Assembly: GCF_001705235.1 (NCBI RefSeq)
Contig: NZ_MCGV01000001.1
Span: 1,860,001-1,924,000, forward strand
Length of the DNA stretch: 64,000 nt
Source: Clostridium pasteurianum
GTDB taxonomy: Bacteria; Bacillota; Clostridia; Clostridiales; Clostridiaceae
Direction of reading: 5' to 3'
Both the position numbers and the translations under genes were made by a program. A model generated the notes under the pieces. That model worked only from the letters and a program-made list of their open reading frames with translations, had not been told where the DNA came from and made no database searches. This document shows, in pieces, positions 2,833 through 55,286 of this stretch (its first letter is position 1; each line of letters opens with the position of its first letter).

Positions 2833-3032
2833 AAAGAGAAGAAACAGTGCTGAAGGAACGGTTTAAAAAAATCCTAATAAGTCTTGGTAAAAAAATCATA
2901 GAATACTTAGATATTTCAATTTGTCTGAGCTTCTTTTCAGCGAGTTATTGAAATATCTTAGTATTCTATGATTTTTTTTGCCTTAGACTTATAGAATTTT
3001 TTTAATGTTCCAAAGCACTGTTTCTTCTCTTT
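2833..3032. repeat. B palindromic element, subtype 2, at the 3' end of the YgjP-type gene
   Basis: A 200-nt imperfect palindrome. The outer arm AAAGAGAAGAAACAGTGCT (2833) is exactly complementary to 3014-3032. Inner arms carry AAAAAAATCATAGAATACTTAGA, split here as AAAAAAATCATAG and AATACTTAGA, and its near complement. The asymmetric loop reads TTTGTCTGAGC...GCGAGTTATT. The right arm ends one base from the stop codon of the minus-strand gene at 3034. Confidence 0.9.
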
Positions 3033-3033
3033 C

Positions 3034-3738
3034 TTAAACATTCACGTACTTGTCTAATTCATCTCTTCTTGCTTCCCAATCTGGTATAAAATTGCTTACA
3101 TAATTATAAAATTCTTTTCTATGATTCCTATATTTTACATGACATAATTCATGAACTATAACATATTCTATGCATACTTTAGGAGTTTTTATTAACTGGG
3201 TATTTAAAACTATTTTATTTTGTGATGGGCTATAGCTCCCCCATTTTGATTTCATTTTTCTTATACTTAGCTGTGGCTTTTCATCATACATTCCACTAAA
3301 TAATTTATATACTTGATCATACAAAAATTTTAATTCTATCGAGGCAACCTTCTTGTACCATTTTTCTGCATAACTTTTTTTATACTTGAAATTATCTTTT
3401 TCCTTTACATACATATATATGTTATTCCCAAAAATCCTCATTTTATTTTTTATGCCTTTTTTAACTATAAGCTTGTATGGCGTTCCAAAAATATAAAATG
3501 TGTCACCATCTGAATATTTGATTTCTTCATTTACGTCAATAATATTTTCTATCCTCTTCATCTGCTTTAATATCCACTTCATTTTTTTATATACAACTTC
3601 TTTTACATATTCATCTGATACATTCTGGGGAGCAGTTACCTCTATACCGAAGTTCTTATTAACAGAAATTTTTATGCTCTTTCTTTCCTTACGAACCAGT
3701 GAAAATTCAATTTTTTGATTCATATACTCAATATTCAT
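3034..3738 (-). CDS. YgjP-type (DUF45) zinc metallopeptidase
   Basis: A predicted cytosolic zinc-dependent peptidase of the YgjP/WLM-like family. The signature is HELCHVKYRNHRKEF around residue 190, with the HExxH zinc site and a downstream WEARRDELD segment, the usual position of the third ligand. The N-terminal half is rich in beta strand and lysine, as in the family. At 234 residues it has family length. Substrates of YgjP proteins are unknown; in some genomes they are linked to restriction modules, but none is seen here. It is divergent from rarA, with a 430-base gap. Its stop codon abuts a B palindrome that would form its 3' UTR. Confidence 0.85.
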   Translation of the reverse strand: MNIEYMNQKIEFSLVRKERKSIKISVNKNFGIEVTAPQNVSDEYVKEVVYKKMKWILKQMKRIENIIDVNEEIKYSDGDTFYIFGTPYKLIVKKGIKNKMRIFGNNIYMYVKEKDNFKYKKSYAEKWYKKVASIELKFLYDQVYKLFSGMYDEKPQLSIRKMKSKWGSYSPSQNKIVLNTQLIKTPKVCIEYVIVHELCHVKYRNHRKEFYNYVSNFIPDWEARRDELDKYVNV

Positions 3739-4172
3739 GGCGCTTTCTTTCCCTTTTCATTTAAAATTTAAATATTTTATTACGATACTAAATTTATAAT
3801 ATTCCCATAAGTATCCCTCCCCCCACATTTAAATATTTTAAAATTTCGTTTCATCAGTTTAGTTTTATAAATTAACCATGATTTTCCTACAATTTTTTCT
3901 ATTTTTAATGATATAAGCTATTATTTTAACATTATCTTGAAGGTTATAAGTTTAATTTACGTATTTGTATAAGTTTATTATAACATAATATTTATTTTTT
4001 TACATATTTCATCATTAATTATTATTTTCGTTTTAATCTAGGTAAGTACATTTTTTTAACATTGTAAAAGTAACATTAGATCTGTTCATTATTTTTTATC
4101 TATAGCATTGAATATATTTTAATGCTATAATTGTTTGAAACATATGTTCGTATTTTGAAAGGAGATATTAAC
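3739..4172. other. Intergenic region without a recognisable gene
   Basis: It is very AT-rich and lies between the divergent YgjP-type and rarA genes. I see no repeat element, RNA gene or credible ORF; it must hold both promoters. Confidence 0.6.
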
Positions 4173-5486
4173 ATGAACTATAATCAAGGTTCATTATTTG
4201 AGAACAAAAATAGTACTCCCCTGGCTGAACGCATGAGGCCAAGAACTTTAGATGAATATATAGGTCAAGGGCATATATTAGGAAAAGGAAAAGCTCTTAG
4301 AAATATGCTCAAGAACGATAACATTACTTCAATGATATTCTGGGGGCCTCCAGGTGTTGGTAAAACAACTCTGGCCATGATAATAGCTGCTATGACTAAA
4401 TACGAATTTATTGAATTTAGTGCAGCAACTTCAGGAATAAATGAAATTAAGAAGGTTATGCTAAAGGCTGAAAATAATAAACGTTTTGGAATACGCACTT
4501 TACTTTTTATAGATGAAATTCACAGATTCAACAAATCTCAACAGGATATTTTTCTGCCTCATGTCGAAAATGGAGATATAGTTCTAATAGGTGCAACTAC
4601 AGAAAATCCGTCCTTCGAAATTAATTCCGCATTACTTTCAAGGTGTAGAGTTTTTGTTATGAAGCCACTTTCTATAGAAAATATAGTTGAACTTTTAAAA
4701 AATACCCTTAATGATTCAAGAGGCTTTAAAAACAAAAAAATACGAATTTCAGATAAGCTTTTAAATTCAATAGCAATATACTCAAATGGAGATGCTCGAA
4801 CTTCTCTTAATGTTCTTGAAATGGCGGTGCTAAGCAGCAAATCAAAAGATGGAACTATGACCATAACTAAAAATATATTAGAAGACTGTATGCAGAATAA
4901 ATCACTTTTGTATGATAAAAACGGCGAAGAGCATTATAATTTAATTTCTGCTTTGCACAAATCCATGAGAAATAGTGACCCTGATGCTGCAATTTATTGG
5001 CTTGCTAGAATGCTGGAAGGTGGGGAAAATCCTCTGTATATAGCAAGAAGACTTATACGTTTTTCTTCTGAAGATGTAGGTGTTGCTGATACTAATGCTT
5101 TGAATGTAGCGGTAAATGTTTATAATGCCTGTCACTATATAGGCATGCCTGAATGCAGCGTAAACCTTACAGAAGCTGTAGTTTATCTATCCTTAGCCCC
5201 TAAATCAAATTCTCTTTATGCTGCATATGAAAAAGCAAAAAAGGATGCAAAAGAAACTCTCTCCGAAGGTGTTCCTCTTAATCTCAGAAATGCCACAACG
5301 AAACTAATGTTAAGTTTGGGTTATTCAAAAGGCTATAAATACGCACATGATTTTGAAAATAAAGTAACAAACATGCAGTGTATGCCTGATAATTTAAAAA
5401 ATCAGAAATACTATTTTCCAACAGAAGAAGGTAATGAGAAAAAATTTAAAAGCAGAATGGAGTATTTGAAAAAAATCAAAAATTAA
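4173..5486 (+). CDS. rarA: Replication-associated recombination protein A (AAA+ ATPase)
   Basis: RarA/MgsA is a clamp-loader-like AAA+ ATPase acting at stalled replication forks. The N-terminus reads PLAERMRPRTLDEYIGQ, typical of RarA; Walker A is GPPGVGKTT and Walker B LLFIDEIHRFN, followed by sensor 1 GATTENPSFEIN and SRCRVF. The C-terminal half contains the conserved MLEGGENPLYIARRL region that supports tetramerisation. At 437 residues it is full length. The ATG at 4173 was chosen because AAAGGAG precedes it by eight bases; an upstream in-frame ATG at 4131 has no such site. It is a single gene, followed closely by a palindrome at 5492. Confidence 0.95.
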   Translation: MNYNQGSLFENKNSTPLAERMRPRTLDEYIGQGHILGKGKALRNMLKNDNITSMIFWGPPGVGKTTLAMIIAAMTKYEFIEFSAATSGINEIKKVMLKAENNKRFGIRTLLFIDEIHRFNKSQQDIFLPHVENGDIVLIGATTENPSFEINSALLSRCRVFVMKPLSIENIVELLKNTLNDSRGFKNKKIRISDKLLNSIAIYSNGDARTSLNVLEMAVLSSKSKDGTMTITKNILEDCMQNKSLLYDKNGEEHYNLISALHKSMRNSDPDAAIYWLARMLEGGENPLYIARRLIRFSSEDVGVADTNALNVAVNVYNACHYIGMPECSVNLTEAVVYLSLAPKSNSLYAAYEKAKKDAKETLSEGVPLNLRNATTKLMLSLGYSKGYKYAHDFENKVTNMQCMPDNLKNQKYYFPTEEGNEKKFKSRMEYLKKIKN

Positions 5487-5491
5487 GGAAG

Positions 5492-5646
5492 AAAAATTAA
5501 GAATGAATGTAACTTTTTCTCAATTTCACTATGAAAACTCTTAAACTTATAAGTTTTTTCATTTCAACTAATGGAAATGTTCTTTTCTAAATTAGTAGAT
5601 TTTCCAAAGCAAAGCGTCAGAAAATCATCATTCATTCTTAATTTTT
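5492..5646. repeat. Long hairpin downstream of rarA (divergent B-like element)
   Basis: Perfect 18-bp arms, AAAAATTAAGAATGAATG at 5492-5509 and its complement at 5629-5646, enclose about 120 nt. The arms begin six bases after the rarA stop. The enclosed segment includes an A-like motif near 5600 (GATTTTCC...GAAAATC). The architecture recalls B, but the arm sequence is unrelated. Confidence 0.7.
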
Positions 5647-5710
5647 ATTTTAATATGACAGATCCAAACCCATATATGATTCCTGCAGTTTAATTACGGC
5701 TTATGCCGTT

Positions 5711-5778
5711 ACTATTAAGATTACCTGTATAGGGTTACGAGATAATGGGTCTTTTTTACCCAAGCCCCTGGATGATTA
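5711..5778. repeat. C-element, partial (right end), abutting the EXLDI gene stop
   Basis: It contains ATAATGGGTCTTTTTTACCC then AAGCCCC and a GATTATA end, matching the C right terminal repeat. The preceding CTATTAAGATTACCTGTAT matches C internal sequence. The end coincides with the stop codon of the minus-strand gene at 5776. Confidence 0.65.
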
Positions 5779-6378
5779 TATATTAAGTACCTCAACTTCG
5801 CTGTCAAATTTCACAATTTCCTCTATTGTTTCATCTGGTATATCGCTTAAATTTCGTACTATTTCTTTTACTGTACTGTATAATTTATAAGAAAGCTCCT
5901 CTTTTATAATATACAGCTCTCTTTCAAAATCAAGATTAAGTTTTGAATATCTCATATGACTTTTATTTATATATACTAAAAACTTTCCCTTTTCAGTTTT
6001 ATATACAGTATATGAATGCTGAAGTACATCATCTCTTTGAAAATTACTTGCATCACATAAAACTCCATTTTCAGCAAAATAACCATTTGAAGTTTTCTTT
6101 ATAAATTTATTATCATTAATCCACCCACTATTAGCTATTTCTTTACCCATAAATTTTATTTGCCTAATAGTAGGTATTATAATGCTATTATTATAATTTT
6201 TAATCGTAAGACATACTTCCTTATTACTTTTTTCATTGCTCTGTATATAACTTTCTAACGCCTTACCAACTAAAGAAGATAACGACATATTATGATCTTT
6301 AGCAAAGTCCTCTGCTTCATCATAAATTTTTGCCTGTTCATCAGCAATATATATATTCTTTCTATTTGTCTGTGTCAT
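5776..6378 (-). CDS. EXLDI-type protein with ribbon-helix-helix-like N-terminus
   Basis: A hypothetical protein of 200 residues. The first ~45 residues (KNIYIADEQAKIYDEAEDFA, then LSSLVGKALESYI) have the spacing of an Arc/CopG-like ribbon-helix-helix DNA-binding segment. The last five residues, EVLNI, match the E-x-L-D/N-I ending that names the EXLDI family. The middle is a lysine- and tyrosine-rich predicted beta domain. It is transcribed on its own from an ATG preceded by GAGGT, with the MFS gene upstream on the same strand. A DNA-binding regulator is the likeliest role; no ligand or target is known. Family assignment is from memory of its ends, so moderate. Confidence 0.6.
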   Translation of the reverse strand: MTQTNRKNIYIADEQAKIYDEAEDFAKDHNMSLSSLVGKALESYIQSNEKSNKEVCLTIKNYNNSIIIPTIRQIKFMGKEIANSGWINDNKFIKKTSNGYFAENGVLCDASNFQRDDVLQHSYTVYKTEKGKFLVYINKSHMRYSKLNLDFERELYIIKEELSYKLYSTVKEIVRNLSDIPDETIEEIVKFDSEVEVLNI

Positions 6379-6510
6379 AATTTATACCTCCTATTCTCGC
6401 ATCAAACGTATACACACTATGCTTATATACTCATTGTACTACTTATGTTCAAAAAATCAATATAAAATATGACACTTTTAATATTAACTATAATTTATTT
6501 TAATTATTTT

Positions 6511-7923
6511 TTAAAAACGCTTCCTATATATTCTAAATGTAGTTAAAAATATTCCAAACAAACATATAAATACCAAAGTCATATACACATATCTCATTCC
6601 ATAAACAAAAACATCATCTCTTCCGAAAACATAGTCTACTACTCTATGTCCTATCTTAATACTCATAAAATTGTATAAAATAGTTGTAGATAATGTTATC
6701 CCTATCATTTGTCCTAAATTTCTTACTAGAGAATTAATACTGCCTGCTATTCCAAGCTTATTTTTAGAAACCGTAGACATTATTAGCGAATTGTTAGCTG
6801 GTTGAAAAAAGCCTTGTCCTAATGCTATTAAAACTATACACAATGCTGCATTTATTAAAAGAGAATGTTCATTCAAAAATGACATAAGTAAAAAACCGCC
6901 TGACATAGATATAAGTCCTACGAGTGTTAATATTTTTGCCCCTAGCTTATCTGACATATTGCCTGTAATAGGGGAAATTAAAGCTATAATTATTGGCTGA
7001 ATCATCATAAATAGTCCTGAATTTGCAGAAGACATTTTTAATGTATCCTGTAAATAAAATGGAATTATAATTATTGAAGCACTTATACAGACAAAAGATA
7101 CGAGAGCACAAAACAAACTTAATGAAAATAAATCATTCTTAAAAATTTCAAGATTCAAAAGTGGAAACTTAGTTTTCCTTTGTAATGCAATAAATACTAT
7201 TAAACAAATTATTGATAAAACAAAACTCACTATAATTATTGGATTTTTGTATCCAAGCTGCTGCTCGCCAATTAAAGACCCAAATAAGAGTATTATTACC
7301 ATAAAATATAATACTGATCCTTTTGTATCAAATTTTTCATCAATATTTTTACCTTTTGGAAGCACTAATAATCCTGCTATAAAAGCTATTATTCCTATAG
7401 GAACATTTACAAGAAATATATAATTCCAACTAAACAAACTTATGATGAAGCCACCTACTGGAGGACCTATCATTGTTCCTAGTGCAACTGCTGATGCTAA
7501 AATTCCAAGTGCTTTTCCTCTCTCCTCTTTAGGAAAAATTTGAGTTATAATACCTTGATTATTAGCCATATAGGCTCCAGCTCCTATACCCTGCAATACT
7601 CTAAAAATCAAAAGCATTATTAAAGAGCTTGAAAATCCACACATAAGTGAAGCAGCAGTAAACACTATAGTACCAATTTTAAATATACTTGACTTTCCCT
7701 TCATATCACCCAATCTTCCAAATATCAAAAGACTAGCACATATAACCATAACATAGCTAGCAACAACCCACTCTATTTCAGCCATACTCACTGAAAGCTT
7801 TTTCGCCATTACAGGTAATGCTACATTTACAATACTGCTGTCAACGCAAGATATAAAGGACATCATTACTACAACAAATAAAATAGTCCATTTGCTGTAA
7901 TGTTTATTTTCTACTAAATTCAT
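6511..7923 (-). CDS. MFS drug exporter, DHA2 (EmrB/QacA) family, 14 TM segments
   Basis: A predicted proton-driven multidrug exporter in the cytoplasmic membrane. Diagnostic features are the N-terminal SIVNVALPVMAKKL motif, motif A GRLGDMKGKSSIF after TM2, LQGIGAGAYMANN, and motif C in TM5 (GPPVGGFIISLFSWNYIFLVNVPIG). About 14 hydrophobic segments span 470 residues, the usual length for DHA2. It is divergent from an AraC-family regulator at 8110, a common arrangement in which the regulator controls the pump. The substrate cannot be inferred. The ATG follows an AAGGAAGG site. Confidence 0.9.
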   Translation of the reverse strand: MNLVENKHYSKWTILFVVVMMSFISCVDSSIVNVALPVMAKKLSVSMAEIEWVVASYVMVICASLLIFGRLGDMKGKSSIFKIGTIVFTAASLMCGFSSSLIMLLIFRVLQGIGAGAYMANNQGIITQIFPKEERGKALGILASAVALGTMIGPPVGGFIISLFSWNYIFLVNVPIGIIAFIAGLLVLPKGKNIDEKFDTKGSVLYFMVIILLFGSLIGEQQLGYKNPIIIVSFVLSIICLIVFIALQRKTKFPLLNLEIFKNDLFSLSLFCALVSFVCISASIIIIPFYLQDTLKMSSANSGLFMMIQPIIIALISPITGNMSDKLGAKILTLVGLISMSGGFLLMSFLNEHSLLINAALCIVLIALGQGFFQPANNSLIMSTVSKNKLGIAGSINSLVRNLGQMIGITLSTTILYNFMSIKIGHRVVDYVFGRDDVFVYGMRYVYMTLVFICLFGIFLTTFRIYRKRF

Positions 7924-8109
7924 TATTAAACTCGCCTTCCTTTTTTAGCATGTTATTGATATAATAAATTTTGTTATATAATGCATAAATTCTATTACAT
8001 TCTGCTTTATATAGATAAAACTTACGCCTATATATTAACAATATAGTTGTTATAATTCATTAATTATCTTGCTAAACATTAGCACTATTTTGCTATATAA
8101 GGAGGAACT

Positions 8110-8985
8110 ATGGAGAGAAATAATCAAAATTACTTTTATAAGAAAATGCCAGATAAAAATTTTGTTGTGGATATATTTAAAAAAAGTCATAATACTAAAG
8201 GTACTGTAATGAATGCACATTGGCATGAGCATCTCCAATTTTTTTATTTTATTAAGGGCAACGCACTACTTCGATGTGATTCTAAAGAAATACAGGTTTG
8301 TGCAAAAGACTTCATTGTCATAAACAGTAATGAACTTCATTATATGAAAAGCCTGTGTAATAACTTAACATACTATGTATTTAGAATAGATTTATCATTC
8401 CTCTTTAGTAATCAAGCTGACTCATGCCAAACCAAATTTATGACACCTCTTGCAAATAATCTGATTTCATTTAAAAACTTAGTTAGAAATAATACTAAGA
8501 TAGAGAAATGTTCTGAAAGCATTATAAAAGAATACTTTTCAAAGAAAATAGGCTTTGAACTTGCCATAAAATCATACGTGCTTAGATTAATAGTCATACT
8601 CCTCAGAAATTACATTGAAAAAATTTATACCAAAAAACAATTTGATTTTAAAGTAACCAAACTAAAACAAATTGATAATATATTGAAATATATACAAAGT
8701 AATTTCACTAAAAAAATAACTATAAATGAACTGGCAAATCTAGCCCACATCAGTAATTATCATTTTTGTAGACTTTTTAAACAATCTACCGGTAAAACAG
8801 TAATAGAATATATCAATGACTTGCGACTAAAAAAAGCTATACTGCTTTTAAAAGACAGCACACTAAATATAACTGAAATAGCCCTATCCTGCGGCTTTAA
8901 CGATGCAAATTACTTCAGTAGAGTTTTTAAAAACAATATAAAAATGTCACCTTCTCAAAAAAGAAGCGAAGTAAGAGTATTTTGA
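8110..8985 (+). CDS. AraC-family transcriptional regulator with cupin sensor domain
   Basis: A two-domain regulator. Residues ~35-110 form an AraC-type cupin (MNAHWHEHLQFFYFIKGNALL) that senses a small ligand; residues ~195-285 carry two helix-turn-helix motifs (ITINELANLAHISNYHFCRLFKQ and LNITEIALSCGFNDANYFSRVFKN). At 291 residues it is full length. The ATG follows AAGGAGGAACT. Its divergence from the DHA2 exporter suggests control of that pump. Oddly, the last six codons (EVRVF then TGA) lie inside the arm of a B palindrome, so the C-terminal tail may be element-derived. Confidence 0.88.
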   Translation: MERNNQNYFYKKMPDKNFVVDIFKKSHNTKGTVMNAHWHEHLQFFYFIKGNALLRCDSKEIQVCAKDFIVINSNELHYMKSLCNNLTYYVFRIDLSFLFSNQADSCQTKFMTPLANNLISFKNLVRNNTKIEKCSESIIKEYFSKKIGFELAIKSYVLRLIVILLRNYIEKIYTKKQFDFKVTKLKQIDNILKYIQSNFTKKITINELANLAHISNYHFCRLFKQSTGKTVIEYINDLRLKKAILLLKDSTLNITEIALSCGFNDANYFSRVFKNNIKMSPSQKRSEVRVF

Positions 8986-9158
8986 AACATTAAATAAAGC
9001 TCATAAGTCTAAGCTCCAAATTATAAAAAGACTAAGAAATTTTAATAACTCGCTGAAAAGAAGCTCAGACAAATTAAAATTACTAAGTCTTTTTATAATT
9101 TGAAGCAAGACTTATTGAGTTTTATTTAAATCGTTCCCAAAATACTCTTACTTCGCTT
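8964..9158. repeat. B palindromic element, subtype 1, overlapping the AraC gene end
   Basis: Its 21-base arm begins AAGCGAAGTAAGAGTATTT at 8964 and contains the last codons and stop of the AraC gene. It is exactly complementary to 9138-9158. Inner arms carry CTCCAAATTATAAAAAGACT and its near complement. The loop AATAACTCGC...GCTCAGACAAATT is inverted relative to the 2833 copy, matching the opposite gene strand. Confidence 0.9.
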
Positions 9159-9168
9159 ATAATAAAAG

Positions 9169-9250
9169 CACGGAGGAATTTTTTCCTTGCCTTACCCTAA
9201 AAATGAAGTAGCATTGATGACTTAACAATTTAAAAAAACTCTAATGAATG
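9169..9250. repeat. B-element remnant with A hairpin and a second copy of the ilvD-end arm
   Basis: CACGGAGGAATTTTTTCC (A, subtype 2) is followed by ATGAAGTAGCATTGATG at 9203 and AATTTAAAAAAACTC. This duplicates the left arm of the complete element at 9634. It is broken at 9251 by a C element. Confidence 0.7.
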
Positions 9251-9506
9251 TTATTATACACGAGGTTTGGGCAATTTAGAAAATGCTTATATGAAGTTGT
9301 TGGTCATAATGTAAAAAGTGCCTATTTATAGTTAAGAAGGATAATGGGTCTTTGACCCAAACCCCGTATATGATCGTTATCCTTCTTTATTTCAAAAGGG
9401 CACTCTCTCTTTATAGGAGGTTTAGATAAGTTTTTAAATCAAAGTTGTTATTTGTAAACATTAAGATAGCCTGTATTTCATAAAGAATGATAATTATCAT
9501 ATATGA
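9251..9506. repeat. Compound C element(s)
   Basis: The left end is TTATTATACACGAGGTTTGG. The right terminal repeat at about 9343-9385 contains GGATAATGGGTCTTTGACCC then AAACCCCGTATATGAT. A second C body follows to 9506 (ACATTAAGATAGCCTGTAT, TAATTATCATATATGAG). GGGTCTTTGACCC is itself a hairpin. This appears to be two C copies joined or one inserted in another. Confidence 0.65.
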
Positions 9507-9587
9507 GTTTTTGGCCCCCCTCATCACCTGCTGACGGGCGAAGCGATGTCAGCACTAATGATATCTAATACATATTATTCACACCTA

Positions 9588-9617
9588 AAATTCCGTAGGT
9601 ACGGAGGAATTTTTTCC
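9588..9617 (+). repeat. A hairpin, subtype 2
   Basis: AAATTCCGTAGGTACGGAGG followed by AATTTTTTCCTTGCC. It lies on the gene-distal side of the ilvD-linked B element. Confidence 0.75.
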
Positions 9618-9633
9618 TTGCCTTATCCTAAAA

Positions 9634-9824
9634 ATGAAGTAGCATTGATGAATTAACGGTTTAAAAAAGCTCTAATAAATCTTGGTGAAAAAATCGTAAA
9701 ATACTTAGAGTTTTAATTTGTTTGAGCATTTTTTAGCGAGTTATTAAAACTCTTAGGATTTTACAATTTTTTTACCTTAGATTTATAGAGTTTTTTTAAC
9801 GTTAATTCATCAATGTTACTTCAT
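9634..9824. repeat. B palindromic element, subtype 2, containing the ilvD stop codon
   Basis: The left arm ATGAAGTAGCATTGATGAAT then TAACG is complementary to 9800-9824 apart from a single mismatch. The right arm contains the last two codons and TAA stop of ilvD (9816-9824). The inner stem has AAAAAATCGTAAAATACTTA and its near complement, around a loop of TTTGTTTGAGC...GCGAGTTATT. Confidence 0.9.
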
Positions 9825-11534
9825 ATATCCACCCTTCATAGGTGATACAGCACATTTAGTGTAAAGTCCTAAAACTCCCTTAGTATACCTTGGTGCAGGT
9901 TTTACCCAATTTTTCTTTCTTTCTTTTAATATACTTTCAATTTCTTTTTCTGTTTTTTCTGTGCCAGCCACTCCTATTATGTCAAGCCTTCTTGCCGGTA
10001 TATCTACTCTAATTAAATCTCCTTCTTCAACAAGTGCTATGGGTCCACCTTCACTTGCTTCTGGAGAAACATGTCCTATTGCTGGGCCTCTAGTTGCCCC
10101 TGAAAATCTTCCATCAGTAATAAGAGCTATAGATTCCACTAATTCTGGGTCAGATGCAATAGCCTCTGTTGTATAAAACATCTCTGGCATTCCAGATCCT
10201 TTTGGTCCTTCATACCTTATGAATACAGCATCACCGGGTTTTATATCTTTAGTAAGTACAGCCTTAATTGCATCTTCTTCACAATTAAATACTCTTGCCT
10301 TTAAAGTTACCTTCATTAATTTTTTAGATACTGCGGAATGCTTTACTACTGCTCCTTCTGGGGCTAAATTTCCTTTTAAAATAGCCAAAGCTCCTTGTTT
10401 TTGAATTGGATTTTCTTTAGGTTTTATTATATCTTCCCTTTTTACTCCCAAAGCTTGTATTAATTTTTCATGTTCCCTATAATAATCACTTTTTCTTATT
10501 TCATCTAGATTTTCACCTAATGTTTTTCCAGTAACCGTCATAACATCTAAATGTAAAAATTCCTTAATCTCCTCCATTACTCTTGGAACTCCACCTGCAT
10601 TCCAGAAATATGAACCTGGATAAAATCCACTTGGTCTTACATTAAGGATATATGGAATCCTTCTGTGAATTTCATCAAATAATTCTGGTTTTATTTCTAT
10701 GTTAAGCTCATGAGCTATAGCTGGAAGATGCAAAATTCCATTACTTGAACCTGCAATAGCTGCATGTACCATTATTGCGTTTTCAAATGCTTCTTTTGTC
10801 ATTATATCTGATGGCTTTAAATCCAATTCTATAAGCTTAAATATTTGTTTTGAAACTTTTTCAGCAGCTTTTTTTAATTCTTTTGAAGTTACTGGTATTA
10901 AAGCTGTACCAGGAAGAGCCATCCCAAGCGCTTCTGACATAATCTGCATCGTAGAAGCTGTTCCCATAAAAGAACAAGCACCGCAGCTTGGACATGCATT
11001 ACATTTATAATAATCATATTGCTTCTTTGTTATTTCTCCTCTTTCATATTGAGCAGCATAAGTACCAATTTGCTCAAGTGTAAGCATATTAGGTCCTGCA
11101 TTCATAATTCCACCTGGAAGCATTATAGCTGGCATATCTAACCTTGCCATTGCCATCAAGTGAGCAGGCATTGCTTTATCACAACTTGCTATAAATACGC
11201 CCCCATCAAAGGGAGTAGCTTTCACATGAATTTCCATAAGATCTGCCATTATATCTCTTGAAGCAAGTGAATAATTCATGCCATCATGTCCTTGAGTCTC
11301 CCCATCACATATATCTGTAGCAAAATATTTAGCACCTCTGCCTCCATTATCTTTTAATATATCAAACACTTCATCAACTAAAGTATTAAGATGTGCACTA
11401 CCAGGATGACTATGACCAAAACTACTTTCAATCACTATTTGTGGTTTTTCCAATTCTTCAAGTGTCCAACCAGATCCCAATCTAAGTGAATCAATTTCGG
11501 GAGCTTTCTTTCTCATCTCTTGACTTCTTAACAA
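9816..11534 (-). CDS. IlvD/Edd-family dehydratase (dihydroxy-acid or sugar-acid dehydratase)
   Basis: An Fe-S dehydratase that removes water from 2,3-dihydroxy acids: either dihydroxy-isovalerate (IlvD) or an aldonate such as gluconate/xylonate. Cluster-binding cysteines and family motifs are visible: FATDICDGETQGHDGM, FIASCDKAMPAH and CNACPSCGACSFMGTASTM, with ITDGRFSGATRGPAIGH near the C-terminus. At ~572 residues it is full length. A TTG start at 11534 fits GAGGTGAT; the GTG at 11543 lies within that site. It is isolated from other branched-chain genes and sits beside a FadR-type regulator with operator-like palindromes between them, which favours sugar-acid catabolism over valine synthesis. 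The stop codon lies in a B palindrome. Confidence 0.8.
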   Translation of the reverse strand: MLRSQEMRKKAPEIDSLRLGSGWTLEELEKPQIVIESSFGHSHPGSAHLNTLVDEVFDILKDNGGRGAKYFATDICDGETQGHDGMNYSLASRDIMADLMEIHVKATPFDGGVFIASCDKAMPAHLMAMARLDMPAIMLPGGIMNAGPNMLTLEQIGTYAAQYERGEITKKQYDYYKCNACPSCGACSFMGTASTMQIMSEALGMALPGTALIPVTSKELKKAAEKVSKQIFKLIELDLKPSDIMTKEAFENAIMVHAAIAGSSNGILHLPAIAHELNIEIKPELFDEIHRRIPYILNVRPSGFYPGSYFWNAGGVPRVMEEIKEFLHLDVMTVTGKTLGENLDEIRKSDYYREHEKLIQALGVKREDIIKPKENPIQKQGALAILKGNLAPEGAVVKHSAVSKKLMKVTLKARVFNCEEDAIKAVLTKDIKPGDAVFIRYEGPKGSGMPEMFYTTEAIASDPELVESIALITDGRFSGATRGPAIGHVSPEASEGGPIALVEEGDLIRVDIPARRLDIIGVAGTEKTEKEIESILKERKKNWVKPAPRYTKGVLGLYTKCAVSPMKGGYMK

Positions 11535-11554
11535 ATTAATCACCTCTTATTTCT

Positions 11555-11568
11555 ATTTGTATTACAGG
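11555..11568. promoter_or_regulatory. Second FadR/GntR-like half-palindrome upstream of the dehydratase
   Basis: TTTGTATTACAGG contains TTGT-ATT-ACA, the T-N-GT-N3-AC-N-A pattern of FadR-subfamily operators, about 20-35 bases before the dehydratase start. It repeats the centre of the larger palindrome at 11611. Confidence 0.4.
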
Positions 11569-11610
11569 TTTATGAATATTATCTGTTTAAAAGAGTTTTA
11601 TTCTTTTATT

Positions 11611-11649
11611 ATTAATTATATCCTTAAAGTTGTAATACAACTTTAAGGA
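11611..11649. promoter_or_regulatory. Perfect 18-bp inverted repeat, probable GntR (FadR-type) operator
   Basis: TTATATCCTTAAAGTTGT and its exact complement are separated by AAT. The centre, TTGTAATACAA, fits the FadR-subfamily operator pattern. It lies between the GntR gene and the dehydratase it probably controls. It could also form a hairpin in the leader RNA. Confidence 0.55.
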
Positions 11650-11708
11650 TATAATACCCTGAAAACGTTTCTTAGTCAATATGCCCACATAATATTTTTC
11701 AATCTTTT

Positions 11709-11744
11709 ATAAAAAAAATAGAAAGTACTTTTAACTTTCTATTT
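11709..11744 (-). terminator. Terminator of the FadR-type regulator gene
   Basis: AAAATAGAAAGT and ACTTTCTATTTT form the stem, followed on the minus strand by a T run. The stop codon TAG (11741-11739) lies within the stem. Confidence 0.75.
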
Positions 11745-12422
11745 TAAGTTCTTCAATTTTTTTAAATCATCTATAGTTCTAAGTGCATGACCTTTTGCAT
11801 AAATAAAAGCCAATTCTGGATCTCTATTTTTTATAGCATCTAAGATAAGTCTGTGTTCACGTATTCCCCCTTTAGGACCAAGACATTCATATAATCCTCT
11901 TTGATGACAGTTAAGTATATTCGCAAGAAGCTCAGTTATTTTTATTATTAAAGAATTTTCACTTCCTTCTGCAATTTTAGTATGAAACTTTAAATCCTCT
12001 TCGGTGAATTTCTTTATATCATTTCTATAATCCATCATATTTTTATATGTTATTTCAAGTTCTTCAATTAATTTATCATCACATCTTTCAGTACATAATT
12101 TAGCCGTTTCTGGCTCCATAATTAACCTAAATTCTAATATATCTAAATAATTATCCTTATCTAAAATGAGCATTGGCAGTAAACTATTTAAATACACTGA
12201 AGGCCCCAAATCATTTATGTATGTACCTCCACCTTTCTTTTTGCTCAAAATATTAAACGCAGCTAATTTTTCTATGCCTTCTCTTACAGATACTCTGCTT
12301 ACATTTAGCTCTTCGGCTAGTTTAGTTTCAGACATAATTTTTTGGCCAGGTTTCCATTCCCCACTAAAAATTTTTTCTTGTATTTTCTTTAGAACCTTAT
12401 CGCTTGTTCTACCATCTTCCAT
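11739..12422 (-). CDS. FadR-subfamily GntR transcriptional regulator
   Basis: An N-terminal winged helix (residues ~5-70: DKVLKKIQEKIFSGEWKPGQKIMSETKLAEELNVSRVSVREGIEKLAA) precedes a C-terminal all-helical FCD ligand-binding domain (ILEFRLIMEPETAKL, HTKIAEGSENSLI, EHRLILDAIKNRD, with the acid/His residues that bind metal in FCD domains). At 227 residues it is full length. It lies upstream of, and on the same strand as, the IlvD/Edd dehydratase. FadR-type proteins usually respond to organic or sugar acids, consistent with the dehydratase acting on a sugar acid. The palindrome at 11611 is its probable target. Confidence 0.88.
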   Translation of the reverse strand: MEDGRTSDKVLKKIQEKIFSGEWKPGQKIMSETKLAEELNVSRVSVREGIEKLAAFNILSKKKGGGTYINDLGPSVYLNSLLPMLILDKDNYLDILEFRLIMEPETAKLCTERCDDKLIEELEITYKNMMDYRNDIKKFTEEDLKFHTKIAEGSENSLIIKITELLANILNCHQRGLYECLGPKGGIREHRLILDAIKNRDPELAFIYAKGHALRTIDDLKKLKNLK

Positions 12423-23912: not shown

Positions 23913-24298
23913 GGATTTTCAGGAGCGCCAGCGGAAGAAAATCTTCCTTGCTTTTATCTTTATGCGAAGTAACAGTATTTTGTAAACTGTTTAAATAAAA
24001 TTGTATAAATCTTAGGGTGATATTTTGAAATTTCTTAGGAGCTTCATATCTTAAGGCATTACTTTATATAATCTTTTATTCCAGATTTTCTGCAGCGCTA
24101 GCGGAAGAAAACCTTCCTTGCCTTTACTTCTATGCAAAGTAACAGTATTTTGTAAACTGTTTAAATAAAATTGTATAAATCTTAGGGTAATATTTTGAAA
24201 AGACTTAGAAATTTCAATCTGTTTGAACGTTAGTGAGTTATTGAAATTTCTTAGGAGCTTCATATCTTAAGGCATTATCTTATATAATCTTTTATTCC
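23913..24298. repeat. Tandem A-plus-truncated-B repeats
   Basis: Two units each begin with an A hairpin (GCGCCAGCGGAAGAAAATC at 23924, GCGCTAGCGGAAGAAAA at 24094). Each continues GAAGTAACAGTATTTTG or AAAGTAACAGTATTTTG, then TGTTTAAATAAAATTGTA, and ends TTATTCCAG. The second keeps a half loop (AATCTGTTTGAACG); the first lacks it. A third A at 24299 leads into the complete element at 24350. Confidence 0.8.
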
Positions 24299-24336
24299 AG
24301 ATTTTCCGCAGCGCCAGCGGAAGAAAATCCTCCTTG
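24299..24336 (+). repeat. A hairpin, subtype 1
   Basis: GATTTTCCGCAGCGCCAGCG then GAAGAAAATC forms a stem of about ten pairs. It is the best-preserved subtype-1 A copy, just left of the complete B element. Confidence 0.75.
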
Positions 24337-24349: not shown

Positions 24350-24539
24350 CCAAATAACAGTGTTTTGGAAACAATTTAAATAAAACTCAATAGAACTTTG
24401 CCTCAAATAATAAAAAGACTTAGAAATTTTAATTTGTCTGAGCTTTTTTCAGCGAGTTATTAAAATTTCTTAGGCTTTTTATTAATTGAGGCTTAGTTCT
24501 ATGAGTTTTATTTAATGTTTCCAAAATACCGTTATTTGG
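24350..24539. repeat. B palindromic element, subtype 1, after the response regulator gene
   Basis: CCAAATAACAGTGTTTTGG (24350) pairs with 24519-24539, with two changes. The inner arm ATAATAAAAAGACTTAG pairs with the complementary right side around the loop TTTGTCTGAGC...GCGAGTTATT. The right end lies five bases from the stop codon of the regulator gene at 24544. Confidence 0.88.
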
Positions 24540-30025: not shown

Positions 30026-30210
30026 CGAAGTAATAATTTTGAGGAACATTAAATAAAGCTCATAAATGAAAGCACCAAATTATAAAAATGCTAATAGCTT
30101 CTAATAACTCGCCTTTAGGCTCAGACAAATTAAAATCTCTAAGTATTTTTATAATTTGGTGCAAGACTTATTGAGCTTTATTTAAATCGTTTCCCAAAAC
30201 TATTACTTCG
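30026..30210. repeat. B palindromic element, subtype 1, not at a gene end
   Basis: CGAAGTAATAATTTTGAGG (30026) pairs with 30191-30210 with few changes. Inner arms ACCAAATTATAAAAATGCT and the complementary right side surround the inverted loop AATAACTCGC...GCTCAGACAAATT. It lies 120 bases upstream of the kinase start and 230 from the argF end; it is preceded by AATATTGCGAAG, as in the gmk gene end. Confidence 0.85.
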
Positions 30211-31771: not shown

Positions 31772-31945
31772 TTTCAATAAGACTTGCTTCAAATTATAAA
31801 AAGACTTATAAATTTTAATTTGTCTGAGCTTTTTTTTCAGCAAGTTATTAAACATTTGGCCACACACAAACTTTTCGCCCAGATTTTCCGCAGCAGAGCG
31901 TAAGAAAATCTTCCTTGCTTTTCTCCTATGGGAAGTAACAGTATT
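31772..31945. repeat. B/A remnants at the 3' end of the GNAT gene
   Basis: Half a subtype-1 palindrome (TTCAATAAGACTTGCTTC...TTTGTCTGAGC...AGCAAGTTATT, 31772-31852) is followed by an A hairpin (AGATTTTCCGCAGCAGAGCG at 31881). The B end GGAAGTAACAGTATT (31931) comes next, against the stop codon at 31949, as if the palindrome body had been deleted. Confidence 0.7.
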
Positions 31946-36203: not shown

Positions 36204-36236
36204 AAAATTCCGTAGATACGGAGGAATTTTTTCCAT
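36204..36236 (+). repeat. A hairpin, subtype 2
   Basis: AAAATTCCGTAGATACGGAG then GAATTTTTTCC. It lies on the gene-distal side of the MarR-linked B element. Confidence 0.7.
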
Positions 36237-36252: not shown

Positions 36253-36537
36253 GAAGTAACAATGCTAGAGAAACGATTTAAAAAATTCTAATAAACTTTG
36301 GTTCAAAAATTGTAAAATTATCATCCACAAAGTTTGGACTTTGCCCATTATTCTTCTTAATTCAATATAAGCACTCTCTACATTGTACAATTCTTAATTA
36401 AAAGATCTAATTTGTTAATTGTAAACATTAAGATAGGCTGTATTTTATAAAGAAGGATAATAGGATTATATTCCAAACCACAGTTATGATAAAATTCATG
36501 GGATTGTTTTAATGCGACGAAGCATTGTTATTTCGTA
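36253..36537. repeat. B palindromic element, subtype 2, containing the MarR stop and interrupted by a C element
   Basis: The left arm GAAGTAACAATGCT...AACGATTTAAAAAATTCTAA (36253-36316) and the right arm ending GCATTGTTATTTCG carry matching outer sequence. The right arm contains the MarR stop codon at 36528. The body between 36317 and 36492 is replaced by a complete C element. Confidence 0.75.
36317..36492. repeat. C element, apparently complete (~176 bp)
   Basis: The left end ATTATCATCCACAAAGTTTG then GACTTTGCCCATTATTCTTCTT is mirrored by the right end AAGAAGGATAATAGG...CCAAACCACAGTTATGATAA. The interior includes AAGCACTCTCT and TAAACATTAAGATAGGCTGT. It is nested in a B palindrome. Confidence 0.75.
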
Positions 36538-36971
36538 GGCCAATTTTCAATGGTCCAATCCAAAAAATTATTTATAACTTTAATGTCATTTTCGCTTGAA
36601 GCACTGAAATATTGATGTATTTTGTTATAAAGTTTTTTGTGATATTCATTATGCAGTGCATTTACTTTTTGGCCATGTTCAGTAAGCTTATAAAAAACAT
36701 CTTTTTTATTATCAGGACTTTGATATTGTTCAATAAGTCCCTTTTTTATAAGCTTGTTTGTAACTTGACTAACAGCACCATTTGTTATACCAAGAATACT
36801 TGAAATTTCACTGGCATTAACATTTTTATGATTGTATATTGCTTCAATAGTATGAATTTCAGAATGATAAAGAACATCACCAGTCCCATAATCTCTAGGC
36901 TTTTTATTACCTTGATTCATAATATTTAACAACCGTTCAGCCTTTTCTATAATTTCCATTTCTTCTTTCAT
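36528..36971 (-). CDS. MarR-family transcriptional regulator
   Basis: A winged-helix repressor of ~147 residues with NASEISSILGITNGAVSQVTNKLIKKGLIEQYQSPDNKKDVFYKLTEHG as the DNA-binding region. ATG 36971 follows GGTGAT. Operator-like palindromes occur at its own promoter (36990 and 37018) and at the membrane-protein gene (36122), implying autoregulation and control of that gene. The last codon and stop (AAA TAA) lie in the arm of a B palindrome. Confidence 0.9.
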   Translation of the reverse strand: MKEEMEIIEKAERLLNIMNQGNKKPRDYGTGDVLYHSEIHTIEAIYNHKNVNASEISSILGITNGAVSQVTNKLIKKGLIEQYQSPDNKKDVFYKLTEHGQKVNALHNEYHKKLYNKIHQYFSASSENDIKVINNFLDWTIENWPTK

Positions 36972-36989
36972 TTTTATCACCAATATTAT

Positions 36990-37275: not shown

Positions 37276-37466
37276 AATCGAAGTAACAGTCTGTTGGGGC
37301 GATTTAAATAAAATTCAATAAGTCTTGCTCCAAATTATAAAAATACTTAGAGACTTTAATCTGTATGAGTCTAAAGACGAGTTATTAAAATTTCTTAGGA
37401 TTTTTATAATTTGGAGCTTAGTCTTATGAATTCTATTTAATGTCCCAACAGACTGTTACTTCGATT
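37276..37466. repeat. B palindromic element, subtype 1, well preserved
   Basis: AATCGAAGTAACAGTCTGTT (37276) is exactly complementary to the right end at 37447-37466. Inner arms TTGCTCCAAATTATAAAAAT and the complementary right side surround the loop AATCTGTATGAG...CGAGTTATT. It lies 228 bases from the CCA gene stop, with the DnaA-box cluster in between. Confidence 0.88.
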
Positions 37467-37663
37467 TTATCCACTTATGCACAGTTTTTGTGTGATTTTT
37501 TATGTTAAAGCACAACTTATCCACATTGTACACAATATTGTCCACAGCTTTTGTGTATAATGCACAGTATAATTGTTACTATTTATGGTATATCACTATT
37601 TATTTTATTTTCTATACACATTATCAACAGCATGTTAATAAAACTTTTATAAGATTTTACACA
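37467..37663. promoter_or_regulatory. Cluster of DnaA-box-like sequences (non-coding)
   Basis: Boxes on the plus strand: TTATCCACT 37467, TTATGCACA 37475, TTATCCACA 37517, TTGTACACA 37526, TTGTCCACA 37538. On the minus strand TTATACACA reads 37560-37552. Weaker copies are TTATCAACA 37621, CTATACACA 37612 and TTTTACACA near 37655. Three match TTATNCACA exactly, all within about 100 bases. The DNA between is AT-rich and no gene starts here. A DnaA-binding (titration or regulatory) locus is the likely meaning. Confidence 0.7.
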
Positions 37664-37694
37664 GTTTCTGTGAATACATGTTGATATGTTTTTT

Positions 37695-39062: not shown

Positions 39063-39158
39063 AGTAATCACCTCTTAAATAATTATATCATTTTGCTTTT
39101 AATGATATACATAATAAGTCGAAAAACTAATTTTCCTATTTATATTTTTTAACTGACT

Positions 39159-47387: not shown

Positions 47388-47389
47388 AT

Positions 47390-48879: not shown

Positions 48880-49126
48880 AAAGTAATAGTATTTTGGGAA
48901 CGGTTTAAATAAAATTCAATAAGTCTTGTTTCAAATTATAAAAAGACTTAGAAATTTTAATTTGTTTGAGTATTATCATATGCGAGGTTTGGGCTTTGCC
49001 CATTATCCTTCTTAACCATATAAAAGCACTCTTATCATATGTGAGTTATTAAAATGTCTTAGTATTTTTATAATTCGGAACTTACACTTATGAGTTTTAT
49101 TTAATATTTCAAAATACTATTGCTTC
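48880..49126. repeat. B palindromic element, subtype 1, containing the gmk stop and a C insertion in its loop
   Basis: The left arm AGCAAAGTAATAGTATTTTG (48880) pairs with 49106-49126. The right arm contains the TAG stop and last codons of the gmk-like gene. Inner arms TTCAAATTATAAAAAGACTT and the right side are complementary. The loop TTTGTTTGAG / TTATTAAAAT is split by a C element at 48971-49045. Confidence 0.88.
48971..49045. repeat. C element, short form, in the loop of a B palindrome
   Basis: TATTATCATATGCGAGGTTT then GGGCTTTGCCCATTATCC and AAGCACTCTTATCATATGTG. The decamer TTATCATATG is directly repeated at 48973 and 49032, as expected of a target or end duplication. Confidence 0.7.
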
Positions 49127-49713
49127 GCAATATTTAGAATTATATCATTTTTTATTTCTTTTACACATTTACTAAGCTTATAATTATCATAATATTTTTT
49201 TATTCCACATTCTCTTAACTTCTCTTCACTAAAATCACTACTATCAGCTAAAAACCTTCTACACATCTCTTCATAATTGGGTTTATACTGGTGCCTTTCA
49301 CGTCTAAGCGCCCTTTCGAGTCTGGCACCATCTTCTACATTAATATAGAATGGAACTACCTTATCCTCTCCAAAATAATTTCTTATATTTTTATAGGCTT
49401 CTGGAGTCGTTATAAGCAAATAATTATAAGTTTCAAATATGATTTGTCCATCATCTATAGTACAATAATGCCATTTTCCATTTACGGTATCATATATTCT
49501 CTCTTCTATTATCTTACCTTTCTGCTCGTACTCCTTAAGCTCATCTTCATTTATAAAATAATATTCAACTCCATCAGTTTCTTTATCTCTTTTAGGCCGT
49601 GTAGTATACGGTATAATTGGCTTTAACTTTAAAGTTTCATCTCCTCTAAGTTTTTTAAATACAGTATCTTTTCCTGAACTACTTTTACCAAGTAGACAAA
49701 ATATTTTACTCAT
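49117..49713 (-). CDS. Guanylate kinase-like protein
   Basis: A P-loop nucleoside-monophosphate kinase of the Gmk fold: Walker A LLGKSSSGKDTV, then PIIPYTTRPKRDKETDGVEYYFINEDEL (GMP-binding region) and RALRRERHQY (lid). At ~198 residues it is family length. The P-loop differs from canonical GPSGVGKGT, so it may be a paralogue rather than the housekeeping Gmk. It occupies the place of tmk in the Bacillus yaaO-tmk-yaaQ order. The last codons, GCG AAG CAA TAG, lie in the arm of a B palindrome. ATG 49713 follows GGAGG. Confidence 0.82.
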   Translation of the reverse strand: MSKIFCLLGKSSSGKDTVFKKLRGDETLKLKPIIPYTTRPKRDKETDGVEYYFINEDELKEYEQKGKIIEERIYDTVNGKWHYCTIDDGQIIFETYNYLLITTPEAYKNIRNYFGEDKVVPFYINVEDGARLERALRRERHQYKPNYEEMCRRFLADSSDFSEEKLRECGIKKYYDNYKLSKCVKEIKNDIILNIAKQ

Positions 49714-49733
49714 ATTTTCCTCCAATTTGCTAT

Positions 49734-53787: not shown

Positions 53788-53803
53788 TATGGAAGGTGAT
53801 AAT

Positions 53804-54721
53804 TTGATAGGAAAAAAGCTTGAACTAGGAGGTACAATTGGAATTATTGCTCCTTCAAGTCCCGAAAAATCCGATGCAATAAAAAATGCCACGGATTTTT
53901 TTACTAGTAAGGGATTTAAAATTAAACTTGGAAAACATGTCTATGATAAGCGAGGTTTCCTTGCTGGAAAAGATGAAGATAGAGCAGAAGATATTATGGA
54001 TATGTTTAAAGATAAGGATGTAGACATAATTTTATGTGCACGCGGCGGTTATGGATCCATGAGAACTCTCCCATATATAGATTTTGACCTAATAAAAAGC
54101 AATCCAAAAATATTCATAGGTTTTAGTGATATAACTTCATTTTTAAATAGTTTTTATTCTAGGACAGGTCTTATAACCTTTCATGGTCCTATGTTTACTT
54201 CTAGCTTTGAGGATAACTATACTGTTGAATCATTTTTTAACACCATAATGAAAGGGATAGCTCCTTACGAAATATCAAATCCTCCTGAAGTTAAGTTAAA
54301 TTGTGCTGTAAAAGGCAAAGCTAAGGGTCATTTAGTTGGTGGAAATTTATCATTAATAAGTAACACTTTAGGAACGCCCTATGAAGTTGACTTTAAAGAC
54401 AATATACTTTTCATCGAAGATGTCCATGAAGAACCTTATGCACTTGATAGGATGCTTACACATCTTGAACTATCAGGCAAGCTCAATGAGTGCAGTGGTT
54501 TTATATTAGGTCAGTTTAAAAACTGTACTCTACCTCACTATGAAAGAAGCTTGACCCTTGATGAGGTTTTCCAAGATAAAATTTTAAGTTTGAACAAGCC
54601 TACTTTAACAAACTTTATGAGCGGACATGATTACCCAAAATTAACCTTACCCATCGGAGCTTATACTCTTATGGATGCAAATAAAGGTACCATAAAAATA
54701 AATGAAGCCGTTGTCGTATAA
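53804..54721 (+). CDS. LD-carboxypeptidase (S66 family, LdcA/MccF)
   Basis: A cytosolic serine peptidase that trims tetrapeptides during murein recycling, or hydrolyses microcin C-type compounds (MccF). The nucleophile Ser is in CARGGYGSMRTLPYIDF; IGFSDITS, FIEDVHEEPYALDRMLTHL (Glu) and the C-terminal GHDYPKLTLPIGAYTLMD (His) supply the rest. Length ~305. TTG 53804 follows GGAAGGTGAT; the upstream ATG 53789 precedes it. Last gene of the M20-corA-ldcA set; its stop codon touches a B palindrome. Confidence 0.9.
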   Translation: MIGKKLELGGTIGIIAPSSPEKSDAIKNATDFFTSKGFKIKLGKHVYDKRGFLAGKDEDRAEDIMDMFKDKDVDIILCARGGYGSMRTLPYIDFDLIKSNPKIFIGFSDITSFLNSFYSRTGLITFHGPMFTSSFEDNYTVESFFNTIMKGIAPYEISNPPEVKLNCAVKGKAKGHLVGGNLSLISNTLGTPYEVDFKDNILFIEDVHEEPYALDRMLTHLELSGKLNECSGFILGQFKNCTLPHYERSLTLDEVFQDKILSLNKPTLTNFMSGHDYPKLTLPIGAYTLMDANKGTIKINEAVVV

Positions 54722-54903
54722 AATAACATTGATGAGGTAACATTAAAAAAATCCTATAAAGCTAAGATAAAAAAATCGTAAAATACTAACAGTTCTTAAT
54801 AACTCGCAAAGCTCAAACAAATTAAAAACTCTAAGTATTTTACGACTTTTTCATCAAGATTTATTAGAATTTTTTTAAATCGTTACCTCATCAATGTTAC
54901 TTT
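54719..54903. repeat. B palindromic element, subtype 2, at the LD-carboxypeptidase stop
   Basis: TAACATTGATGAGGTAAC (54724-54741) is exactly complementary to 54882-54900. The left arm starts within the TAA stop. Inner arms AAAAAATCGTAAAATACTAA and the complementary right side surround the inverted loop AATAACTCGC...GCTCAAACAAATT. Confidence 0.88.
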
Positions 54904-54918
54904 AATTTAGGAGTAAAA

Positions 54919-54953
54919 CAAGGAAAAAATTCCTCCGTACCTACGGAATTTTA
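54919..54953 (-). repeat. A hairpin, subtype 2 (reversed)
   Basis: AAGGAAAAAATTCCTCCGTA then CCTACGGAATTTT. In the gene-sense direction it resembles a weak intrinsic terminator (stem followed by TTTT). Confidence 0.75.
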
Positions 54954-55046
54954 AGCATGAACTGTATAGATTAAATAGTTGATTTACTTTCATATCTATA
55001 TTATTTATCATTTATATAAATTAATGCATTATAGGATTTTAATTTC

Positions 55047-55085
55047 AGATTTTCCGAAGAGTTAACGTAGGAAAATCTTCCTTGC
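55047..55085 (+). repeat. A hairpin, subtype 1
   Basis: CAGATTTTCCGAAGAGTTAA then CGTAGGAAAATCTTCC. It lies on the gene-distal side of the B element at 55098. Confidence 0.65.
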
Positions 55086-55097
55086 CTTTATTCTAAG

Positions 55098-55286
55098 GGA
55101 ATTAACAGTATTTTGGGAACGATTTAAATAAAACTCAATAAGTCTTGCTCCAAATTATAAAAAGACTTAAAAATTTTAATTTGTCTGAGCTTCTTTTCAG
55201 CGAGTTATTAAAATTTCTTAGTATTTTTATAATTTGGAGCTTAGACTTATGATCTTTATTTAATGTTCCAAAATACTGTTGCTTAC
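55098..55286. repeat. B palindromic element, subtype 1, best consensus copy
   Basis: Left outer arm GGAATTAACAGTATTTTGGG (55098), right arm CCAAAATACTGTTGCTTACC. Inner arms GCTCCAAATTATAAAAAGAC and the complementary right side enclose the loop TTTGTCTGAGC-TTCTTTTC-AGCGAGTTATT. The right end lies six bases from the TAG stop of the DUF3006 gene. Confidence 0.9.

Follow-up and report, generated by a model that had tools for sequence, protein, structure and literature searches.

The hairpin repeats ERIC, NEMIS/Correia, Ype and Efa form families at the level of a species or genus, and their arms are conserved. Together with stem-loops near stop codons in low-GC Firmicutes, ERIC, NEMIS, Ype and Efa are the nearest described counterparts of the element reported here; they are intergenic and co-transcribed with genes, and Ype and Efa are said, on preliminary data, to enhance mRNA stability (extracts of PMC1590033). 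Our element, B, is a near-perfect palindrome of ~190 nucleotides (nt) that recurs in a 64,000-nt stretch of Clostridium pasteurianum DNA (the window; G000:C1:1860001-1924000, where G000 is this organism's 4.68-Mb genome). It resembles those repeats in its intergenic position and probable co-transcription, but the arms of B-type elements are unrelated between phyla and only the tip of the hairpin is common to them.

A second point of comparison is the REP/REPIN sequences with their RAYT transposases. According to extracts of PMC2817692, tabulated REPs measure ~20-40 nt and nearly all have a GTAG/GTGG-type head. B is likewise short, palindromic and extragenic, with more than 100 copies and inverted pairs, but it is ~190 nt long, is defined by its tip, lacks the GTAG/GTGG head (its ends lie around GAAGTAAC) and has several carriers without Y1_Tnp. 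With miniature inverted-repeat transposable elements (MITEs) it shares a non-autonomous nature, inverted repeats and dispersal, whereas no parent transposon with ends matching B was found and the arms are unrelated between taxa (33 aligned copies). Like an intrinsic terminator, B is a hairpin directly after a stop codon; however, in window positions 1-12000 the terminator-like sites fall on a separate hairpin, A, and none on the three B copies. Termination by B itself therefore looks unlikely. Finally, template switching between inverted-repeat arms (quasipalindrome correction) is a known process that makes arms alike and maintains hairpins, as excerpts of PMC8794818, PMC8604942 and PMC7202029 describe it. 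The outcome resembles the arms of B, but this is a mutational process and not an element, and it accounts for the arms and not for the shared tip or position.

At gathering score, Rfam 15 matched only rRNA and tRNA in the window and nothing in 15 non-Clostridium loci; a permissive search of 4 loci gave 16 hits, all under gathering scores. No description of B was found in the literature searched, most subscription papers lying outside its reach, and strings of the tip motif occur in papers unrelated by title. The original prediction, made from the letters of the window, did not recognise the family, and B is new in the sense of being absent from that literature and from Rfam 15. We consider it, with slightly better than even confidence, a non-autonomous mobile hairpin of a cross-phylum superfamily, recognised by its tip, located at gene 3' ends and with arms kept complementary by templated repair. 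Two points go beyond the first reading: the tip is common to several phyla, and the arms reflect sequence that is specific to the copy and to its gene.

On the mRNA strand, the tip of B reads AATAACTCGC..GCTCAGACAAATT. Ten near-complete copies with a conserved loop had been named in the window, and direct reading showed nine of them to be near-perfect palindromes around TTTGTCTGAGC..GCGAGTTATT or close variants; at 36253 the tip is replaced by another repeat. The RNA fold of the 2833 copy reaches -95.3 kcal/mol, compared with -29.9 (standard deviation 3.9) for 200 dinucleotide shuffles (z = -16.6), and its DNA fold is similarly extreme against dinucleotide shuffles (z = -14.7). A covariance model of the tip and ~28 nt of each arm, built on 33 copies from many taxa, located B at 11 window places with E < 1e-4 (2894, 9019, 9692, 24192, 24407, 30078, 31793, 37334, 48935, 54773 and 55154) and at a twelfth with E 0.09. 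Direct reading, folding and the model bear out the palindromes, the asymmetric loop and the orientation, while the list of ten proved incomplete, having overlooked two weaker copies (24192 and 31793). Eight of the ten abut or contain a stop codon, as had been stated (2833, 8964, 9634, 24350, 36253, 48880, 54719 and 55098). The exceptions are 30026, with no same-strand open reading frame (ORF) of at least 40 amino acids (aa) ending just upstream, and 37276, whose gene is 228 nt away.

The exact tip pattern occurs 155 times in the genome, split 80 to 75 between the strands, and the reversed-pattern control has 0 matches. Placement statistics refer to the window and 70 own-genome loci, not to all 155 copies, and genes were taken without annotation as ORFs of at least 80 aa (at least 100 aa in the sense/antisense count). 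Allowing at most one substitution, there are 122 loop places, up to base 3,006,463, in 66 of 71 sources. Leaving out 31 with weak arms (tandem, truncated or degenerate) gives 91 full copies, with a gene-side arm of 78-95 nt in 74 and 65-85 Watson-Crick pairs in 76. A same-strand stop codon lies 50-110 nt before the tip in 67 of the 91, 42 times within the arm and 25 times just before it, most commonly at 69-70 nt, which is the TAA of GAAGTAAC. Of 84 palindromic copies, a sense stop alone lies within 250 nt in 51, and an antisense stop alone in none. Within 40 nt of the outer-arm edge, 84 of the 91 full copies have stops in all three frames, compared with 38.9 when the arms are shuffled, and the preference for a C-terminal lysine at insertion sites is modest (29/67 versus a background of 31-34%). 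Dispersed copies are up to 98.9% identical. By its position and orientation, B belongs to the 3' untranslated region (UTR) of its gene, as the original prediction held. Four tandem B copies with a 220-nt spacing lie at G000:C1:2997548-2998234, and other arrays are spaced ~195 and ~260 nt (e.g. 1729546-1730091); in most of the later copies the gene-side arms are weak.

Such a distribution might also be left by an ordinary MITE-like palindrome, belonging to a conventional DDE transposon and without site preference, if insertions elsewhere than at gene ends were lethal. No loop place out of 122 falls inside an ORF, and tandem copies and mosaics accumulate downstream of genes, both of which this explanation would accommodate. 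However, the edges of B cluster within ~30 nt of the stop and in one orientation instead of being spread over intergenic space, and a common tip with arms unrelated between taxa is the opposite of what a transposon with recognised terminal repeats would show. We therefore find a MITE-like origin improbable.

Comparison with relatives places the element among additions to gene ends. The tip pattern is present in 5 of 206 genomes of the family and in 3 of 4 genus members (155, 41 and 99 copies); with up to 150 candidates scored per genome, the covariance model found at least 150 copies in G000, 149 in the carrier G162, 85 in the carrier G161 and 0 in G160, the element-free congener. Orthologs of 24 element-bearing genes were sought with one joined query, yielding 51 gene-relative pairs for 22 of them, 34-100% identical. 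The alignments extend to within 8 residues of the protein end in all 51 pairs and to within 4 in 44, and a complete tip stands within 400 nt behind the ortholog in only one pair (L312). By eye, arm fragments are visible behind at least four further orthologs (L316, L322, L323 and L343). At L322 in G161, behind the ortholog of the gene at 1480277, apparently only the outer arm ends are left (GGAAGTAACGGTATTTTTTAATG..AACACTGTTACTTCTC), as expected if the centre of a palindrome had been deleted.

A shared next open frame was sought behind 21 genes and obtained for 13 genes at 11 junctions. In all 11, this frame lies farther off here than in G160 (758/146, 1021/375, 181/67, 658/57, 512/16, 341/78, 884/47, 894/53, 1323/153, 937/110 and 924/151 nt, respectively); in the comparison with G161, itself a carrier, the distance at one junction is not larger (894/907). 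The protein ending FKNLKRNSNDVEH here, which we take to be arginase-like, has the end FKNLK in G160; for the gene before the 467450 copy the ends are KIKII there and KIKLINIDL here. Set against the element-free relative, B is an insertion, and in some genes it supplies the last codons. The comparison of orthologs with and without the element thus agrees with a palindrome inserted at stop codons, on the grounds of stop position, orientation and element-free orthologs.

The tip, AACTCGC-N-GCTCARACA, is not confined to Clostridium. It is patchy and multi-copy, and stands at the apex of palindromes with unrelated arms in several phyla. When named genomes were scanned for AATAACTCGC-N3..15-GCTCARAC, at least 117 stretches matched; among the matches listed are Clostridium hydrogenum, C. 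guangxiense, Marinobacter, Flavobacterium, Dysgonomonas, Desulfobulbus, Gastranaerophilales, Polaribacter and others; loci L120-L156 were assigned as Clostridium or non-Clostridium by their arm sequence. Palindromes surround the tip in 111 of 118 hits outside these Clostridium species, with 17 more at contig edges excluded, and an earlier lenient test that included the own genome was passed by 153 of 166, some of them chance hits in coding DNA. Across an alignment of 33 copies the letters AACTC, TCA and ACA never change, whereas the arms show no relation from one taxon to another; within the genus of G000 they are alike. The inner two pairs are GC..GC, and the cap varies in length, sometimes with an extended stem (GCAGC-TAAA-GCTGC); in the Clostridium tip variant CTCACTAACGTTCA a pair is changed on both sides. 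Counting the centre genomes, 18 of 229 genomes in the class of G206 have the tip, with up to 32 copies, as do 4 of 118 in the phylum of G207, with 28 copies in G207 itself; the control was 0 in both. Of the 111 non-Clostridium copies, 16 fall within an ORF of 100 aa or more; with these set aside, 95 are left, of which 46 show a sense stop within 250 nt and 31 an antisense stop. A phage origin was considered and dismissed, only 6 stretches being present in IMG/VR. In many copies from Bacteroidota and Proteobacteria (L139, L214, L226, L236 and others), a hairpin of the CTTTTCTTTGCGTCGCCAAAGAAAAG type followed by AACCAAAAGAAAGG precedes the tip palindrome; this hairpin may be another conserved component of the superfamily.

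In each copy the two arms match each other specifically. Over the 91 full copies, the own-pair scores of the outer arms sum to 1694.5, against 912.9 (standard deviation 27.8) when permuted, and in 45 the own distal arm fits better than all 90 others. An alignment of 74 copies (17 of the 91, with a loop string shorter than 24 letters or not starting with AATAACTCGC, were left out) contains both-side changes in 32 of 53 consensus pairs and Watson-Crick pairing in 3721 of 3913 cells. The distal arm of the 2902351 copy mirrors the coding end AAATTAAAATAG that precedes this copy, whereas related copies have TTACTTCTCTTT at this place. The AAATTA part of the coding end is found in the G160 ortholog as well, so that the distal arm follows the gene in at least that case. 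The 1183033 copy has gene-specific letters without mirroring in the distal arm. Two Marinobacter loci, L062 and L105, have copies at the same junction, between genes that are presumably those of ribosomal protein L17 and uvrA; a matched five-letter block differs in both arms (GCTGTGTGTATTTTC/GAAAATACACACAGC versus GCTAGATCTATTTTC/GAAAATAGATCTAGC) and the tip is retained.

Matched arms of this kind could also belong to a functional RNA, that is, a 3' UTR hairpin selected in the transcript as an mRNA stabiliser, RNase III substrate or protein-binding site, with the tip as the binding site. The strict sense orientation behind genes (51 to 0), a location straight after the stop that makes co-transcription likely, the very stable fold of the 2833 copy, the both-side changes in 32 of 53 pairs and the co-diverged arms at orthologous Marinobacter genes are all in its favour. 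However, selection on pairing of the sense RNA should favour G.U, and the sense strand of the 74-copy alignment holds 48 G.T (G.U as RNA) and 73 A.C. Each of the three groups in which isolated mismatches were counted shows the same leaning (G.U versus A.C, 78 vs 121, 29 vs 74 and 15 vs 49); as that count repeats fixed positions, we prefer the column-based one, itself not free of shared ancestry. The lack of a sense-strand G.U excess argues against transcript selection alone, though related copies are not independent, and the giant RNA hairpin of the original prediction is disfavoured as the sole thing selected. The patchy, multi-copy distribution and the relatives that have the same genes without B also tell against it. 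Since there is no sense-strand G.U excess, we place the mobile DNA hairpin first, as slightly more likely than not, and the selected RNA hairpin, which we think rather unlikely, second.

A mobile DNA hairpin could work as follows. The family would be defined by its tip, made up of a long outer stem, an asymmetric internal loop (5' AACTC / 3' TCARACA), a two-pair GC..GC stem and a variable cap, and a putative factor would recognise it. B would insert at gene 3' ends, at the stop or a few codons from it and in one orientation, by a targeting that goes beyond mere survival; its outer arm would bring stops in three frames, so that the gene would keep an end and gain the hairpin as its 3' UTR. Afterwards the arms could drift freely and stay complementary, most simply by intrastrand template switching in replication, whereby the distal arm would come to mirror the last letters of the host gene. 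We hold more tentatively, and on balance doubt, the broader proposal of a mobile-element class defined by the tip alone, in which a widespread factor would recognise AACTC/TCARACA and place the hairpin at gene ends, and the stems would be continually rewritten with the last codons of the host around one fixed 16-nt core, which would be the only sequence conserved across several phyla.

Several observations weigh against the mobile hairpin. In 24 of the 91 full copies the stop is missing from its usual place (19 with none within 400 nt and 5 with one farther away), although at least one of them, 55098, adjoins a 71-aa ORF below the 80-aa cut-off, and placement at stop codons could reflect survival and not targeting. 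The orientation bias is weak outside Clostridium (32 only-sense versus 17 only-antisense). The sameness of tip letters across taxa is partly built in, as the tip was the search key; the palindromes around the tips and the zero reversed-pattern controls are independent of that key. Similarity between copies ends upstream at the arm edge and continues downstream through a mosaic of other repeats, and because the far side of B runs into this mosaic, neither its far boundary nor a clean empty site flanked by a target duplication could be defined. Mirrored differences between close copies are single letters in 41 of 43 runs, and multi-letter mirrored blocks, considered as proof of template switching, were not found between them. 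Retention at the same gene across Marinobacter species could mean a useful function.

Nor was a mobiliser found. Beyond palindrome ORFs and orthologous genes, no protein family recurs near 93 non-Clostridium loci (283 ORFs, blastp clustering), a method that would miss remote families. Of the stop-codon-targeted mobile palindrome that the original prediction listed among its possibilities, the stop position, the orientation and the insertion relative to G160 stand, whereas targeting and mobility are what we infer from them.

One candidate follows from the REP likeness: B could be REP-like itself and owe its movement to a REP-associated Y1 (HUH) transposase. High copy number, palindromic form, intergenic location and tandem and inverted pairs are as in REPs (extracts of PMC2817692). 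Furthermore, and also counting against the mobile hairpin as we describe it, both intact Y1 genes of the own genome (IS200-like, with a 182-aa open frame) sit inside B-A units at the same point, after GCAA between B and A (L157, G000:C1:2316527, and L158, G000:C1:3408652), which keeps a Y1 link alive. However, IS200 ends carry other hairpins, for which reason we read these genes as IS200 insertions into a B-A target. Y1_Tnp is absent from 8 of 18 genomes (17 carriers and G160), including G162 with its 99 copies, while the element-free G160 has four matches; the tip occurs in none of 30 Y1 loci (L160-L189); and the missing head and the length of 190 nt, not roughly 20-40, set B apart. A REP-like origin seems to us very improbable, the least probable of the explanations weighed here. 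A target preference of IS200 for B-A units is possible.

Two other candidates were set aside. A reverse transcriptase (RVT_1, PF00078) as driver was dismissed, as none was detected in 8 of 14 genomes searched, including the carriers G000, G161 and G162. Rpn nucleases (PF12784) are present in the three genus carriers and not in the element-free G160, but none was found in 10 of 10 other tip-bearing genomes and no tip in Rpn loci, which leaves a weak lead. Two open Rpn-type nuclease genes lie at G000:C2:18849-24497, and a decayed one at 190509-191193 of this 191-kb second contig.

The features of the window are collected in the table. A second small palindromic repeat is present inside two B copies (window 36315-36500 and 48975-49040), and in the 36253 and 48880 copies it is a nested insertion of a second small palindromic element. 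At 48975-49040 it reads GAGGTTTGGGCTTTGCCCATTATCCTTCTTAAC, with flanks TTATCATATG, and similar stretches stand beside other copies in the genome. A cluster of TTATCCACA-like sequences, which we take to be DnaA-box-like, occupies window 37430-37690, between a B copy and the polyA-polymerase-like gene.

Table. Copies of B and associated A hairpins in the window (window coordinates)
Feature	Position	Strand	Remarks
B palindrome	2833..3032	-	loop 2923-2949; abuts stop codon 3034-3036 of ORF 3034-3738 (YgjP-like)
B palindrome	8964..9158	+	stop codon of ORF 8110-8985 (AraC-type regulator) inside
B palindrome	9634..9824	-	stop codon of ORF 9816-11543 (dihydroxy-acid dehydratase) inside
Weaker B copy	24154..24305	-	variant tip AATAACTCACTAACGTTCAAAC; covariance-model match
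B palindrome	24350..24539	-	stop codon of ORF 24544-25236 (response regulator) 4 nt away
B palindrome	30026..30210	+	exception without same-strand gene just upstream
B fragment	31793..31874	-	only tip and short inner arms
Disrupted B	36253..36539	-	outer arms present, another repeat in place of tip; no covariance-model match
36253 copy, gene-side arm		-	holds stop codon of ORF 36528-37016
B palindrome	37276..37466	-	exception, 228 nt from stop of ORF 37695-39071 (polyA polymerase-like)
B palindrome	48880..49139	-	another repeat inserted in tip; stop codon of ORF 49117-49725 inside
B palindrome	54719..54904	+	stop codon of ORF 53789-54721 (LD-carboxypeptidase) inside
B palindrome	55098..55286	-	abuts stop codon of ORF 55293-55508 (71 aa)
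A hairpin TTCCTCCGTNCCTACGGAATTT	2790..2811	-	~20-25 nt past distal arm of B; terminator-like
A hairpin	9588..9609	-	terminator-like
A hairpin	36205..36226	-	
A hairpin	54930..54951	+	

If B is a mobile hairpin of the kind proposed, one recognition tip would unite the otherwise unrelated hairpin repeats of Clostridium, Bacteroidota, Marinobacter and others, and a tip common to unrelated repeats would suggest an undiscovered recombination or binding factor. Since its arms mirror codons under coding constraint, B would also allow hairpin maintenance by DNA template switching to be told apart, in a natural setting, from selection on RNA. For Clostridium pasteurianum, it would mean that gene 3' ends have been rebuilt by insertion at large scale, with 155 exact tips in one genome, and that the stop codons have been kept.

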